A stretch of 20,382 bases of DNA from a virus: the IMG/VR virus record IMGVR_UViG_3300017724_000130, positions 1-20,382 of that record; one strand, written 5' to 3'. The notes beneath the pieces were generated by a model. The model saw nothing but the letters and a program-made list of their open reading frames with translations. It ran no database searches and was not told the DNA's origin. Positions 5,455-15,426 of this stretch are shown here, one piece after another. Within the stretch, counting starts at the first letter, position 1. Each line of letters starts with the position of its first letter. The position numbers and the translations under genes are program-made.

Positions 5455-5621
5455 AAAACATTTTTATATGTCATATTTTTTTATTATATTTTATATAATT
5501 GATTTATTAGTTGTATAAGGAGAAAGATAGTAATACCGGCAATATTATATAATCACTTAAACAGATAAGGAGTTACGCTGAAAATCCTTTAAAGAGTAGG
5601 CAAATCAAAAACATTTTTAAA
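5455..5621 (+). promoter_or_regulatory. Promoter and long structured leader of the 5622 gene
   Basis: A gene-free 167-base leader. Bases 5467-5491 match part of the duplicated promoter cassette (23 of 25 with 1288-1312), so transcription probably starts shortly after. Downstream, ATAAGGAG occurs twice (5515-5522 and 5565-5572), each like a strong ribosome site but with no start codon behind it; the second can pair with TCCTT at 5585-5589 to form a small hairpin. The gene's own ATG at 5622 has no ribosome site next to it. No open reading frame longer than 16 codons was seen. A post-transcriptional control element is possible. Confidence 0.5.
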
Positions 5622-7069: not shown

Positions 7070-7078
7070 ATATTTATA
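7070..7078 (+). promoter_or_regulatory. Late-type promoter motif of the tmRNA gene
   Basis: TTGATATTTATAATTG contains ATATTTATA at 7070-7078, immediately upstream of the first paired segment of the permuted tmRNA (GATC at 7082-7085 or TTATAT at 7094). A start site 6-12 bases downstream would fall where the acceptor RNA should begin, which supports both the promoter call and the RNA call. Confidence 0.6.
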
Positions 7079-7084
7079 ATTGAT

Positions 7085-7141
7085 CGTTAGTAGTTATATT
7101 AGCTGCATTGTTGGACGAGGGTTCGATACCCTCCACCTCCA
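7085..7141 (+). ncRNA. tmRNA acceptor piece (tRNA-like 3' part)
   Basis: Holds the 3' side of helix P2, the T-arm and the 3' acceptor strand, with A7141 as discriminator base. The genome reads ACTAAA after the acceptor strand, so the CCA tail is not encoded and must be added by the host CCA enzyme. The 5' end is estimated from the promoter position. Confidence 0.8.
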
Positions 7142-7160
7142 CTAAATAGATTTACAATAT
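7142..7160 (+). other. tmRNA intervening segment (predicted to be excised)
   Basis: Nineteen AT-rich bases join the 3' acceptor end to the 5' acceptor start. In known permuted tmRNAs this loop is removed by tRNA-type processing enzymes (RNase P at the 5' side), leaving two RNAs held together by base pairing. The boundaries follow from the 7-bp acceptor stem plus one discriminator base. Confidence 0.75.
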
Positions 7161-7207
7161 GGGGGTGACTGGATTTGACACAATGATAAGGATATAATGA
7201 AGATCAC

Positions 7208-7249
7208 GCATTAACTGGCGAACAAGTTGAAATGGCGATGGCGGCTTAA
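7208..7249 (+). other. tmRNA tag reading frame, ending in ...EMAMAA
   Basis: Starting at GCA 7208 the frame reads ALTGEQVEMAMAA and stops at TAA 7247-7249. A start at GGC 7217 would give GEQVEMAMAA. The hydrophobic AMAA end matches the xLAA/xVAA ends that ClpXP-type proteases recognise. The stop codon sits in a GCTT...AAGC hairpin loop, the usual location (P5). Which codon is the resume codon cannot be decided from one sequence. Confidence 0.8.
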
Positions 7250-7419
7250 TTTAAGCACCCTGACCCAACGGTTGAAGAAGCATACCGTTTAAGCTTCGGT
7301 GGTAAGAGGTTAATGTATTTCGGAGGGTATTAGGAACTCTCACCCTCTATTTTTGCGTCTGAGACGTCGCGGATAGCTTAAAGAGTTCAGCTGGGAGGGT
7401 TGGCGGATTAAAAAAATAA

Positions 7420-8067
7420 ATGGAAAATAAAACAAATATATCTAGTTGGACAATAGACCAAGTTTTAGACCCAGAGTCTAAATTTTGGGATAAATTACTT
7501 GGTGATATGGATATATATTTATCAACACTAGATCCTGAATCAATAAATGCACTAGGATCAGAACCATTTAGAAGTAGAATAGCTGATTTTATAACATTTT
7601 TTAAGGGTAAAGCTGAGCAAAATCAAGTATTAAAAGAAATAGAAAAGGTTGAAGACGTTGTTACCGGTACACTATGGTCACTAATAAAAGACGAAGATAG
7701 GCATATTTTATTTGATAATGATATCGATTATTTTAGTGATTGGATTGATAGTTGTCCTAGAGAATTGTTAGATATTTATATTAAAGCGCTATCTAAAGGT
7801 GAATCACTTAATGATGTATCAGATACTGAATTAGATTTAACTGGAATTATACAAAAATCAAACATAAAGGAAGATATGTGTAATGTTAGTGTGTATAATG
7901 GCAAACTAATATTATCTTCAACCGATAAAAAATTATTGGATAAATTTAAAATAGTAATGGTAGAAGCAGGCAATACATTAAAAGACTATAGAACAGATAA
8001 AAGTCCTGATAATTTAAAAACAATACACACATATATATTTGAAATTACACATAGTAAAGACAAATAA
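7420..8067 (+). CDS. Hypothetical protein, 215 aa
   Basis: An acidic, soluble 215-residue protein, largely helical in the first 150 residues and with two or three beta strands near the end (NVSVYNGKLILSSTDKKL). The ATG follows an A-rich run with no ribosome site, just behind the tmRNA, so it may be read from the tmRNA promoter or from read-through. No motif or family recognised. Confidence 0.7.
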   Translation: MENKTNISSWTIDQVLDPESKFWDKLLGDMDIYLSTLDPESINALGSEPFRSRIADFITFFKGKAEQNQVLKEIEKVEDVVTGTLWSLIKDEDRHILFDNDIDYFSDWIDSCPRELLDIYIKALSKGESLNDVSDTELDLTGIIQKSNIKEDMCNVSVYNGKLILSSTDKKLLDKFKIVMVEAGNTLKDYRTDKSPDNLKTIHTYIFEITHSKDK

Positions 8068-10713: not shown

Positions 10714-11496
10714 ATGAAATTAACAGAAGAACAAATAGTACAAAACTGGGAACAACTACAAACAAGAATAGCAGATAACTTTGATGGTGATAGAAAAAAT
10801 AACCTATTAAAATTATATAGTGACCTTTCAGAAAGAATGATGCTTGCACCGGCCTCTGGAATAGAACACTTTCATAATTGTTTTGCTGGTGGCTATGTAG
10901 ACCACGTATTAAGGGTTATGGATTGTACTGAAAGATTATATATCCAATGGGAAGAAATGGGTGCTGATATGTCTGGATATACTAAGGAAGAAATTATGTT
11001 TTGTGCTCTTAATCATGACTTAGGTAAGGCTGGAGATATAGATAACGATTATTATATACCAAACCCTAGTGAATGGCATAGAAAAAACCAAGGTAAAATA
11101 TATGATCCTAATCCAAATATACAAAACATGACAGTACCGCATAGAAGCATATGGTTGCTTTCAAAATATGAAATTCAATTTTCTCAAAATGAAATGATAG
11201 GAATATTAACCCATGATGGTGTATATGATTCTGCAAATGATTCTTACCTTAAACCATGGGGAAAAGAAAAAGCCTTATGGAATAATCTACCAATAATTCT
11301 ACATCATGCAGATCACATGGCTTCCAGAATAGAATATGAAGCTTGGAAATCTGGTAGTAAAATAAAGTCAGCGTTTACAAAACCAAGAGAAACAACATTA
11401 ATTAAAAAACCTAGTGCTAAAAAGGTTAAAATATCTACAGCTACAAATGGTACACCAGCACAAGATATGTTTAAGGACTTATTTGGAGAATCATAA
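10714..11496 (+). CDS. HD-domain phosphohydrolase
   Basis: A 260-residue metal-dependent phosphohydrolase of the HD superfamily, which cleaves phosphate esters of nucleotides. Seen: GGYVDHVLRV with H64, the defining H101-D102 in CALNHDLGK, a histidine at H143 and H167 in ILTHDG, and the late D200 in LHHADHMASR. This fits the H...HD...H...H...D metal-binding order. The last 45 residues are basic and low-complexity. HD proteins in T4-like phages are thought to act on nucleotide pools or signalling nucleotides; the substrate here is unknown. It precedes two genes ending in the late sigma factor, and its stop overlaps the next ATG by one base. Confidence 0.85.
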   Translation: MKLTEEQIVQNWEQLQTRIADNFDGDRKNNLLKLYSDLSERMMLAPASGIEHFHNCFAGGYVDHVLRVMDCTERLYIQWEEMGADMSGYTKEEIMFCALNHDLGKAGDIDNDYYIPNPSEWHRKNQGKIYDPNPNIQNMTVPHRSIWLLSKYEIQFSQNEMIGILTHDGVYDSANDSYLKPWGKEKALWNNLPIILHHADHMASRIEYEAWKSGSKIKSAFTKPRETTLIKKPSAKKVKISTATNGTPAQDMFKDLFGES

Positions 11497-11774
11497 TGTA
11501 TAATATATCTATAGATATTTTAATAACTCTATTATTGTTTGCTAGTATTTATGTTAACTGGAATCTATTTACAAAAATAGAAAAACTAGAAGAAGCAAAC
11601 GAAGAGGCAACAGATTGGATTTTAGGATATGGTGTTTCACTGGATAATATATTAACAAAAATAAAAGACTTAGATTCTAAAAATATATTTGAATCAGATG
11701 ATGAAGTAGGAGTAGTTTTTAAATCTATAAAAGAAACTATAGAATCTTTAGAGGAGTTAAAAAATAATGATTAG
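11496..11774 (+). CDS. Membrane-anchored coiled-coil protein, 92 aa
   Basis: An N-terminal membrane helix (about residues 5-25) followed by a coiled-coil stretch rich in Glu/Lys. The phrase SKNIFESDDEVGVVFKSIKE looks like a conserved core (I recall similar phrases in T4-like marine phages, unchecked). It overlaps HD upstream by one base and gp55 downstream by eight. Function unknown. Confidence 0.75.
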   Translation: MYNISIDILITLLLFASIYVNWNLFTKIEKLEEANEEATDWILGYGVSLDNILTKIKDLDSKNIFESDDEVGVVFKSIKETIESLEELKNND

Positions 11775-12540
11775 TCCAGTTGAACAATTCTATATAGATA
11801 TAGAAAAATTAAGAGAAAAAGAAAGACAAGAAGCATTACTACCAGCAGTTGCAAGAAGAGGTAGACCCAGAAAAAGAAAATTATATTTTACAGATGAAAC
11901 TGAAATGGCCATAATAGCATATAATATAGAAGAAAATATGCGATTAAAAAACAAAGTTTATAATGAGTTTATAAAACACCCTTTTGAAAAATTGTCTGAA
12001 AATATTATACATACATTTAAGTTTTATTATTTTGACGGTGGAACTCGAGAGGTACAACAAGAAGTTATAGCTTTTTTAATAGAAAAAATGAAAAAGTTTA
12101 CACCTGGAAAAGGAAAGGCTTTTTCATACTTTGGCCAAATAACTAAAAATTATTTGATACAAAACAACAATAAAAATTATAAGGATTTAAAAAATAAGGC
12201 ACCAATAACTGTTATAGATTTAAAGAGAGATTTAGGCGCCGAACAAGCATTACAAGATAAAAGAGACGGGCTAGATACATTCATGGACAGTTTTGTCACA
12301 TATTATAGTAAAAAGGTTGATGAAAAATTCAAATCCCAAAGAGATAAAAAAATAGCTTACGCAACATTAAAGCTATTCGAAGACAGAAAAAACATAGAAA
12401 TTTTCAACAAAAAAGCATTATACATTTTAATTAGAGAAATGACTAACACCAAAACACAACATATCACAAAGGTGGTCAATGTCATAAAACTTGATTTCAA
12501 AGAATTATATAAAAGATTTGAAAACGGAGCATATATTTAG
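11767..12540 (+). CDS. 55: Late-transcription sigma factor, gp55-like
   Basis: A 257-residue homologue of T4 gp55, a minimal sigma-70 relative that makes host RNA polymerase read phage late promoters. Seen: the long helical region at about residues 65-140, with HPFEKLSENIIHTFKF followed by the signature GKGKAFSYFGQITKNYLIQ (115-133), equivalent to sigma region 2. T4 gp55 is 185 residues; this one has about 40 extra residues at the start, including a basic R-R-G-R-P-R-K-R-K run (30-38) like an AT-hook, which would bind AT-rich DNA. The putative promoter motif TATTTATA lies just downstream and in front of the structural genes. The T4 partners gp33 and gp45 are not visible in this window. Confidence 0.88.
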   Translation: MISPVEQFYIDIEKLREKERQEALLPAVARRGRPRKRKLYFTDETEMAIIAYNIEENMRLKNKVYNEFIKHPFEKLSENIIHTFKFYYFDGGTREVQQEVIAFLIEKMKKFTPGKGKAFSYFGQITKNYLIQNNNKNYKDLKNKAPITVIDLKRDLGAEQALQDKRDGLDTFMDSFVTYYSKKVDEKFKSQRDKKIAYATLKLFEDRKNIEIFNKKALYILIREMTNTKTQHITKVVNVIKLDFKELYKRFENGAYI

Positions 12541-13475: not shown

Positions 13476-13850
13476 ATGTTTCAAGACGAAATATTTGAAG
13501 GTAAAAGTTTTTCTGATTTATTAAAAGAAATACATACTAATTCAAAAAAGAAGGAAAAACAAATTAATTCATTGATTGCTCAATTGCATCCATTAGTTAA
13601 AAATATAACTGATGCTACTATTCTTGTGCCACTAATAAAGGATTATCTTGATGTGGGCATAAAAAATGATGACCAACTAGTAAAAATGGCTAGTATCATA
13701 CAGAGAGCAATGTCAAGAACAGAAGCAGAAGGTACAGATTTTAGTTTATCTGACGATGAAAAAAAGCAGTTATTAAATACTGTAAAAGAAGCTTCACAGA
13801 AAGTAGAATGGGAAGAAGATGCCAAGAGTAAGGTCAAGCAAACCAAGTAA
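13476..13850 (+). CDS. Conserved small virion-region protein, 124 aa
   Basis: An acidic, helical 124-residue protein that heads the baseplate operon, with ribosome site GGAG. The phrases KSFSDLLKEIHTNSKKKEKQI and HPLVKNITDATILVPLIKDYLDVGIKNDDQLVKMASIIQRA form two to four helices. I recall similar proteins next to the hub gene in marine T4-like phages (not checked), and its position suggests a baseplate chaperone or small hub part. It overlaps the hub gene by 32 bases. Confidence 0.75.
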   Translation: MFQDEIFEGKSFSDLLKEIHTNSKKKEKQINSLIAQLHPLVKNITDATILVPLIKDYLDVGIKNDDQLVKMASIIQRAMSRTEAEGTDFSLSDDEKKQLLNTVKEASQKVEWEEDAKSKVKQTK

Positions 13851-15426
13851 TCCAAATCCACAAAAATCAAGAGGAGCTGCTGCCCAGGATGTAAAAAATC
13901 AGGTTATAGAGGCTGCAGAGGTTGTTGATATAATTATGGATCCAACCCACCCTTCCTTTAATGCTGATAGAAGGAGAACAATAGGTGCTGTAATGGCAAG
14001 GCCTCTTGTTAGACAATTTAATCAACCTGTTGATAATTTGGCATGGTATAATCCACTACAATCCCATGCATCAATATATCCATTACTTGGGGAAATAGTT
14101 TTATTAATATCTGCACCTGCAACATCTGCACAATTAATAACTGAGGGTAAAGCAAAATATTATATGTCTGTTGTAAATGTTTGGCACTATGTTAATCACA
14201 ATGGACTACCAGCATCTAGTTATGATATTAACGCCCCAGACGCAGATAAAACTAAAAATTATAGAGGCTTTACTGGTAATTCTAAAGGTGGAGCAGATGA
14301 TATTCCTTTTGGGTCGACCTTTGTTGAAAAACCAATTGCAAGAGTTTTTCCATATGAAGGAGATATAATATATGAAGGTAGATGGGGCCAAAGTTTAAGA
14401 TTTGGTAGTACTGTTACAGAACCAGCAACACCTAATGATTGGTCTTCTACTGGTGATGATGGAGACCCAATAACTATAATTTCTAATGGCCACGCTTCTG
14501 AAGGATCTTCATACCACATTGAAAACATAAATCAAGATTCTAGTGGAATATTTTTATGTAGTTCACAAAAATTACCCATAGATATAGCATCAACAAACTT
14601 CGATTCATATGCATCTGCAGGAGTAGGTGCAACCGAAGAAAAAAGAGAACAAATAGCAGGACCAGAAGCTCCTGAAACTCCAACAGGTGGAGCAGCTAGT
14701 CCAGGAGGAAGTGCAGATGCAAAAGCGGCTGCAGGTGGAGGTGGAGCAGAAGATGGAGAGGATTTAGCTGATGTTCCACCAACAGAAACAGATGTACCAC
14801 CAGATGCAGAAGTATCTGCAGCTGTTGAAGAATTAGAAGACGCTGGAGAATTTGATGCATATAGAAGAGGTAAATATACTGAAACAATAACTTGTGTTGT
14901 TATTGACGGTAAAATTGTAAATAAAGCGTTTGCAGATAAATTACTAACAGTTAAACAGGCGGCTCAAAAAGACGGTGTACGTGTAAAATTAAATAGTGGG
15001 TTTAGACCAATGGAAGCTGCATCTGGACCAGGTTGGTCGACATCAGGTCAAATGACTCTTCGAAGACAAAATTCTGGTACCCAGGTTGGTGGTAAAAAAT
15101 CAGGATTAAAAGCAGCTGCTGGAGAATATAGTGATGGTTTTACAAAACAAATAAGACAAACTGGTTATTTCAGTCCTTTAACTGCTGGTCCAGGATTTTC
15201 AAACCACCAAAACGGTAAGGCTTTTGATATTCAAACTGGAATGGGTAAAAGTCAATCACCATATTCCACAACAACAAAAACTTGGAGGTGGCTAGTTGCA
15301 AATATGCACCAATATGGCTTTATTAGAGCTGTTGCAAAAGAAAGATGGCATTGGGAATATCACCCAGGAGCAGGTATGTTTTCAAAAGTACCTAGAGACC
15401 ATGGAACATGGGACAATTTAGTATAG
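13819..15426 (+). CDS. Baseplate hub (gp5-like) with M15 peptidase domain
   Basis: A 535-residue fusion. Residues about 50-260 carry the T4-like hub/OB-fold region (GEIVLLISAP, FPYEGDIIYEGRWGQSLRFG, GDPITIISNGH, GIFLCSSQKLPI). A Gly/Ala/Glu-rich linker spans about 265-345. Residues about 345-535 form an M15 (VanY/DD-carboxypeptidase type) peptidase, which cuts the D-Ala peptide crosslinks of peptidoglycan: SGFRP at 393-397, zinc ligands H463 and D470 in SNHQNGKAFD, and E508-x-W-H511-x-x-Y with catalytic E508 and ligand H511. T4 gp5 carries a lysozyme in the same role, so the phage has swapped a sugar-cutting enzyme for a peptide-cutting one. It probably opens the cell wall during tail contraction. 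Confidence 0.9.
   Translation: MPRVRSSKPSNPNPQKSRGAAAQDVKNQVIEAAEVVDIIMDPTHPSFNADRRRTIGAVMARPLVRQFNQPVDNLAWYNPLQSHASIYPLLGEIVLLISAPATSAQLITEGKAKYYMSVVNVWHYVNHNGLPASSYDINAPDADKTKNYRGFTGNSKGGADDIPFGSTFVEKPIARVFPYEGDIIYEGRWGQSLRFGSTVTEPATPNDWSSTGDDGDPITIISNGHASEGSSYHIENINQDSSGIFLCSSQKLPIDIASTNFDSYASAGVGATEEKREQIAGPEAPETPTGGAASPGGSADAKAAAGGGGAEDGEDLADVPPTETDVPPDAEVSAAVEELEDAGEFDAYRRGKYTETITCVVIDGKIVNKAFADKLLTVKQAAQKDGVRVKLNSGFRPMEAASGPGWSTSGQMTLRRQNSGTQVGGKKSGLKAAAGEYSDGFTKQIRQTGYFSPLTAGPGFSNHQNGKAFDIQTGMGKSQSPYSTTTKTWRWLVANMHQYGFIRAVAKERWHWEYHPGAGMFSKVPRDHGTWDNLV

Follow-up and report, generated by a model that had tools for sequence, protein, structure and literature searches.

Bacteroidota-type signatures in a phage-encoded, circularly permuted tmRNA and its relatives

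Three events in cellular lineages have been invoked to account for permuted tmRNA genes. Where, then, does a permuted gene come from when it is carried by a virus and resembles the unsplit tmRNA of Bacteroidota, and what could it do during infection? We followed up such a locus in the window, i.e., the whole of a linear 20,382-base IMG/VR fragment. We consider it likely that the locus encodes a functional permuted tmRNA of Bacteroidota ancestry, a reading that includes processing into two pieces, ribosome rescue and membership of a phage-borne lineage.

Gene layout and pairing across the permutation

The permuted tmRNA in the window is real. The Rfam permuted-tmRNA model RF04321, in a search proposed by a preliminary description of this DNA, matches positions 7094–7249 with 64.5 bits (cut-off 47), ARAGORN also calls a permuted tmRNA, and the core pattern was found in 0 of 100 shuffles of the window (expected 0.00 times). 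The gene is phage-encoded and circularly permuted, as that description had it: T-arm and 3′ acceptor strand precede the 5′ acceptor strand (Table 1). The T-arm lies upstream of the tag and no second one was found downstream in the window; the standard one-piece layout was not recovered either, with no RF00023 match of note in the Rfam search of the window. The 7-bp acceptor stem and the two P2 segments described beforehand are all present and covary in relatives, and a further helix, P2c, was missing from the earlier list. Since discriminator A7141 is followed by CTA, the CCA end is probably added. The intervening sequence measures 16–22 nt in close relatives and as much as 266 nt in others.

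Table 1. Positions of the tmRNA gene and neighbouring elements in the window.
Feature	Position	Strand	Basis or remark
TATTTATA motif, candidate phage promoter element	7071–7078	+	Just 5′ of acceptor piece
Acceptor piece	7081–7141	+	Rfam, ARAGORN, covariation; 5′ end predicted
P2c, 3′ strand	7081–7085	+	Pairs with 7202–7206
P2b, 3′ strand	7094–7099	+	Pairs with 7192–7197
P2a, 3′ strand	7106–7111	+	Pairs with 7180–7185
GGAC	7113–7116	+	
T-arm	7117–7133	+	7113–7133 with GGAC
Acceptor 3′ strand	7134–7140	+	Pairs with 7161–7167, 7 bp including one G-U pair
Discriminator A	7141	+	
Intervening sequence	7142–7160	+	19 nt; removal expected
Coding piece, 5′ part	7161–7216	+	Alignment of relatives, resume-distance counts
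Acceptor 5′ strand	7161–7167	+	
D-domain ACTGGATTTGAC	7168–7179	+	
P2a, 5′ strand	7180–7185	+	
P2b, 5′ strand	7192–7197	+	
P2c, 5′ strand	7202–7206	+	
Tag reading frame GEQVEMAMAA*, Gly resume codon GGC	7217–7249	+	ARAGORN; kept in relatives
tmRNA pseudoknot 3′ of tag, single	7256–7301	+	Alignment of relatives; outer CACC/GGTG
Pseudoknot S1, ACGGT/ACCGT	7268–7272/7284–7288	+	
Pseudoknot S2, GAAGC/GCTTC	7277–7281/7293–7297	+	
Separate structured RNA, outside tmRNA	7323–7392	+	Upstream of gene at 7420; 22 viral loci, pair counts; hairpins GAGGGT/ACCCTC, CGTC/GACG, AGCT/AGCT
Loop-loop pseudoknot of this RNA, GAACTC/GAGTTC	7334–7339/7383–7388	+	

A pattern scan of IMG/VR returned 84 stretches with a permuted core, and the tag VE[ML]AMAA is common to 29 sequences including the window. 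The degron-like Ala-Ala end and stop of the window tag are likewise conserved in relatives. We then counted pairs in 34 aligned phage genes, covering 29 pairs in five helices: 96.2% of cells are paired, compared with 43–53% when slid, 13 of the 29 pairs show double changes (6.1 expected from shuffles) and the covariation score is 0.287 against 0.131 in shuffles, with 0 of 500 shuffles for each of the three measures. Four of the five helices, the acceptor stem and P2a–c, bridge the intervening sequence, with one strand on either side of it, and they covary. By eye, P2c occurs as TGATC/GATCA, TGACC/GGTCA and TGAAC/GTTCA, and P2a as CATTGT/ACAATG, CTCTTT/AGAGAG and CTCAAT/TTGAG. Pairing between the two pieces is under selection, and compensatory changes across the permutation make a pseudogene very unlikely. 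Energy folding of the single tmRNA pieces gave z near 0, a method that is uninformative for pseudoknots and two-piece RNA.

Both H-type pseudoknots of the preliminary description exist, but only the first (7268–7297) belongs to the tmRNA; its S2 co-varies among relatives by inspection (GAGGC/GCCTC, GAGAC/GTCTC, GAGGT/ACCTC). The second was rejected as a tmRNA pseudoknot because its covarying block is also present in three phages that have the same gene neighbourhood and no tmRNA at all (L089, L090, L097). The tmRNA therefore ends near 7305 with a coding piece of about 145 nt, and the proposed end at 7407, with a predicted piece of 240 nt, was too far downstream.

The part of the coding piece ahead of the tag is short. 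From G1 to the resume codon there are 56 nt in the window, 56–60 nt in GE-type phages (two longer values are probably mis-set resume codons), 59–61 nt in crAss-like phages and Panino, and mostly 56–63 nt in relatives with longer intervening sequences. Elsewhere, the distance is 82–86 nt in alpha permuted genes and 92–98 nt in Bacteroidia one-piece genes, one probable miscall aside. As only 10 nt separate P2c (last position 7206) from the resume codon (first position 7217), there appears to be no room for PK1, and this would be a natural tmRNA apparently without that pseudoknot. The short form is common to the phage genes, which supports a single origin of the phage lineage.

Lineage signatures and origin of the permutation

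The alpha-, beta- and cyanobacterial permuted tmRNAs (RF04321; RF01849, RF01850, RF01851) have the same layout as the window: T-arm and acceptor 3′ strand, intervening sequence, acceptor 5′ strand, P2, tag and pseudoknot. The preliminary description named these groups and suggested that the gene could mark its source lineage; by our results, this lineage is probably none of the three. None of these lineage-specific models reached its cut-off among the matches listed for the window, overlapping lower-scoring clan matches being unlisted; beta_tmRNA (RF01850), the only one reported, scored 44.4 bits against a cut-off of 84, its match being confined to the tRNA domain. Pelagibacter phage Mosig, used as a positive control, exceeds the alpha_tmRNA cut-off (67.6 vs. 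50 bits). The window differs from all three in that its D-domain has TTGAC, its tag starts with Gly, its 5′ part is shorter and the post-tag [CG]AACAGAA motif is lacking.

The sequence signature is that of the Bacteroidia one-piece tmRNA (RF00023). Both share a 5′ end GGGGxTGACTGGxTTTGACA with the D-domain ACTGG-N-TTTGAC, the T-arm GGACGAGGGTTCGAxxCCCTCC, a resume context ending in GGC, a Gly-Glu tag start and a tag end ALAA or AMAA. The window departs from these genes in its permuted order, in the 56 rather than 92–98 nt to the resume codon (no PK1) and in one post-tag pseudoknot that replaces a longer downstream region. In GTDB, with one genome per species, 18 stretches match the coding piece exactly over its first 20 nt, 17 of them in Bacteroidota-labelled genomes (13 one-piece by ARAGORN and 4 uncalled, some of these near contig ends); the remaining one is a permuted gene on a phage-like contig that had been assigned to a Pelagibacter MAG. 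A sample chosen via RF00023 and without the 20-nt pattern gave a standard tmRNA in 27 of 30 Bacteroidia genomes, and in the 23 one-piece genes resolved by ARAGORN we counted TTGAC in 19, a Gly-start tag in 17 and the tag end AMAA in 6. TCGAC, on the other hand, is found in 16/16 alpha permuted cores and 9/9 one-piece cores sampled from Pseudomonadota. These frequencies come from the RF00023 sample only, since an earlier one-piece set had been picked by the pattern GGGGNTGACTGGNTTTGACA and is biased for D-domain counts. That first pattern, since replaced, reached 2 of 148 even when the phylum was sampled evenly, its rarity being explained by the many Bacteroidia that carry GGGGxCG.

The source lineage thus appears to be of Bacteroidota type: the window tmRNA resembles the unsplit Bacteroidota gene and no cellular split version. 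A tree of the tRNA domain was poorly resolved, being too short at about 48 nt, so the case for an independent permutation rests on signatures and distribution. As to the latter, a second pattern scan gave at least 119 stretches and, pooled with other loci, at least 71 permuted and at least 61 one-piece genes with a D-domain of the window type. Relatives occur in many marine contigs. A blastn search of the tmRNA locus against annotated phages at E 1e-5 gave no match, and a relaxed search of these phages led to named members of the same type: the crAss-like phages cr114_1, cr125_1 and cr10_1 and the cultured Maribacter phage Panino. Their genes are permuted like that of the window, with a TTTGAC D-domain, a Gly-start tag and 59–61 nt to the resume codon, but have longer intervening sequences (one with a tRNA-His gene) and are annotated only as tmRNA.

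Taken together, the phage genes are best read as a fourth permuted tmRNA lineage, distinct from alpha, beta and cyano, whose permutation was probably independent of the others. On balance, we lean towards a fourth circular permutation for which phages are the only place of origin or of survival; it would have started from a one-piece gene of Bacteroidia, lost PK1 and spread among unrelated Bacteroidota phage families (T4-like myoviruses, crAss-like phages and Panino) while their hosts kept the one-piece form.

Alternatively, the gene could descend by transfer from the alpha, beta or cyano lineage and have converged on Bacteroidota features that suit the host alanyl-tRNA synthetase, SmpB and proteases. 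Its acceptor and T-arm are broadly like beta_tmRNA (the 44.4 bits above), and marine phages with an alpha-type permuted tmRNA do exist (PMC9004378), Mosig being one at 67.6 bits. We regard this descent as unlikely, given the model scores and the D-domain, Gly-start tag and short 5′ part, all of which differ. Moreover, the post-tag motif CAACAGAA/GAACAGAA occurs in 35/68 TCGAC-type permuted genes against 2/60 of the TTGAC type, and both of the latter matches fall, by inspection, in the downstream gene, which leaves the window type without it.

Acquisition from an unsampled bacterial group with a permuted tmRNA of its own, perhaps within Bacteroidota, seems to us quite improbable. Sampling of the phylum is incomplete, and one of 395 Bacteroidota genomes does hold a copy above the RF04321 cut-off (L223). 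This copy, however, sits in a phage-like region beside tRNA genes and short ORFs, in a genome with its own one-piece tmRNA, and 0 of the 394 other genomes exceeded the cut-off. Filters were stricter in this search of 395 genomes, and the scores of crAss members lie little above the cut-off (50.9 vs. 47 bits), so weak members could be missed.

Two-piece tmRNAs of phages are already published: 53 such structures were reported among 402 phages with a tmRNA and discussed within three lineages (PMC9004378). Those of OM43 phage Melnitz and of pelagiphages are phage-encoded, permuted and marine like the window, but of alpha type rather than Bacteroidota type. A 2025 paper on a tmRNA database (PMC11915505) gives three main clades of permuted genes and 79 sequences from phages, and the Panino paper, in its available portion, mentions a tmRNA without noting its form (PMC11590407). 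In the literature searched, supplementary tables apart, no Bacteroidota-type permuted lineage came to light, though such tables may list one; this form is a new variant. If our reading is true, a virus-borne permuted lineage with unpermuted hosts implies that a core translation RNA exists in versions which phages themselves evolve and exchange.

Proposed function, phage and likely host

The mechanism that we propose follows established tmRNA biology. A single transcript, possibly from a phage promoter at 7071–7078, would be cut by host RNase P before G7161 and by RNase Z or a similar enzyme after A7141, with CCA added. The gene order and conserved cross-piece helices point to two mature pieces, an acceptor piece of about 61 nt and a coding piece of about 145 nt, which would stay joined through the acceptor stem and three P2 segments. 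Once charged with alanine, the tmRNA would be delivered by host SmpB to stalled ribosomes; translation would resume at GGC 7217 and add A-GEQVEMAMAA as a proteolysis tag. Host SmpB is presumed because none was found in a 153-kb relative or the other phage records tested. It is likely that the window tmRNA rescues ribosomes in this way, probably as a supplement during infection, when many mRNAs are broken; extra rescue capacity would be useful in lytic infection for that reason. The presence of this tmRNA type in cultured and gut phages makes function open to experiment.

The RNA could instead be a decoy or modifier that titrates SmpB or adds a different tag and so spares phage proteins from degradation, a role to which we assign little probability. 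The tmRNA of phage DS6A, reduced to a tRNA-like domain, inhibits host tmRNA (as cited in PMC11915505 and PMC4131195), and the NNY motif that is widespread among tags of Bacteroidia is missing from the window tag. Against a decoy, the frame is conserved, the AMAA end matches 6 of 23 Bacteroidia host tags, and tag and downstream pseudoknot are kept in most relatives. A non-functional remnant, left when a phage integrated at a host tmRNA gene or excised imprecisely from it, is barely credible: tmRNA genes are common integration sites, a role proposed for Panino (PMC11590407), but compensatory changes cross the permutation, the tag frame is intact, dozens of contigs carry the gene, and most sampled host genes are one-piece, so that a permuted copy could not restore them.

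In line with the T4-like phage of the preliminary description, the window encodes baseplate wedge proteins of gp25-like and gp6-like type, along with Hsp20 and VanY-domain proteins. A gp55 late sigma factor was not confirmed, the candidate ORF 11767–12540 having homologs in Flavobacterium and related phages and no profile match. These homologs fall in the same three groups as those of the gp6-like protein, whose matches are Microcystis phage Mel-JY01 (50.6%), Flavobacterium phage immuto (42.9%) and an uncultured huge phage (42.6%). The phosphohydrolase at 10714–11496 matches four immuto records only (43.5%), and the three genes keep the same order in immuto. These matches and the shared gene order make a Bacteroidota host likely; the closest baseplate homolog, however, is from a phage recorded on Microcystis. 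Whether a phage infects alpha-, beta- or cyanobacteria cannot be read from a permuted tmRNA alone.

The TATTTATA octamer looks like a phage promoter element. It occurs 13 times in the window against 5.8 expected, including intergenic gaps at 844, 1308, 7071, 12552, 13449 and 16308 (+), and precedes the genes at 875, 1347, 12676, 13476 and 16346. A [GT]ATATTTAT-like stretch stands ahead of most GE-type phage tmRNAs.

A second structured RNA and minor observations

The block at 7323–7392 is a candidate new cis-regulatory RNA. A pattern scan found its core in 21 viral stretches besides the window, and it is missing from many tmRNA relatives. In 17 distinct sequences, 93.4% of cells are paired (33–42% when slid), and double changes affect 5 pairs where shuffles give 2.3; a comparison with Rfam gave no match. 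With or without a tmRNA, it precedes a gene for a ‘W-x-I-D-x-V-L-D-P’ protein, and it is perhaps the leader of the gene at 7420.

The window has another Rfam element, a DUF805b cis-regulatory RNA at 5567–5602 (39.5 bits, cut-off 35.6), just upstream of ORF 5622. Among the tail genes, the protein of 13819–15426 has a VanY D-alanyl-D-alanine carboxypeptidase domain (Pfam, 52.9 bits) and is possibly a tail-associated endolysin.

Other observations concern the relatives. The intervening sequence of the permuted tmRNA in cr114_1 contains a tRNA-His gene (L302, 1247–1319), an arrangement called unique to one nominally archaeal tmRNA gene (PMC11915505), and a RAGATH-9 RNA (153.7 bits) lies upstream of the same tmRNA (L302, 723–890). 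Four loci (L106, L066, L207 and L199) have a tag frame of apparently about 36 codons from GGC (e.g., GTQIKSVKAG...YAMAA), and ARAGORN misplaces their tags. L106 is the Bacteroidota-type permuted gene on a phage contig (C10 of G003) in a Candidatus Pelagibacter MAG; the contig is probably misbinned, and the MAG also has its own alpha-type tmRNA. Finally, one-piece phage tmRNAs with unusually long tags of the ANAQIEANMNKVFSLLREEVAVAA type were seen at several loci (within L119–L212, and L300), one of them in the cultured Cellulophaga phage Calle_1.
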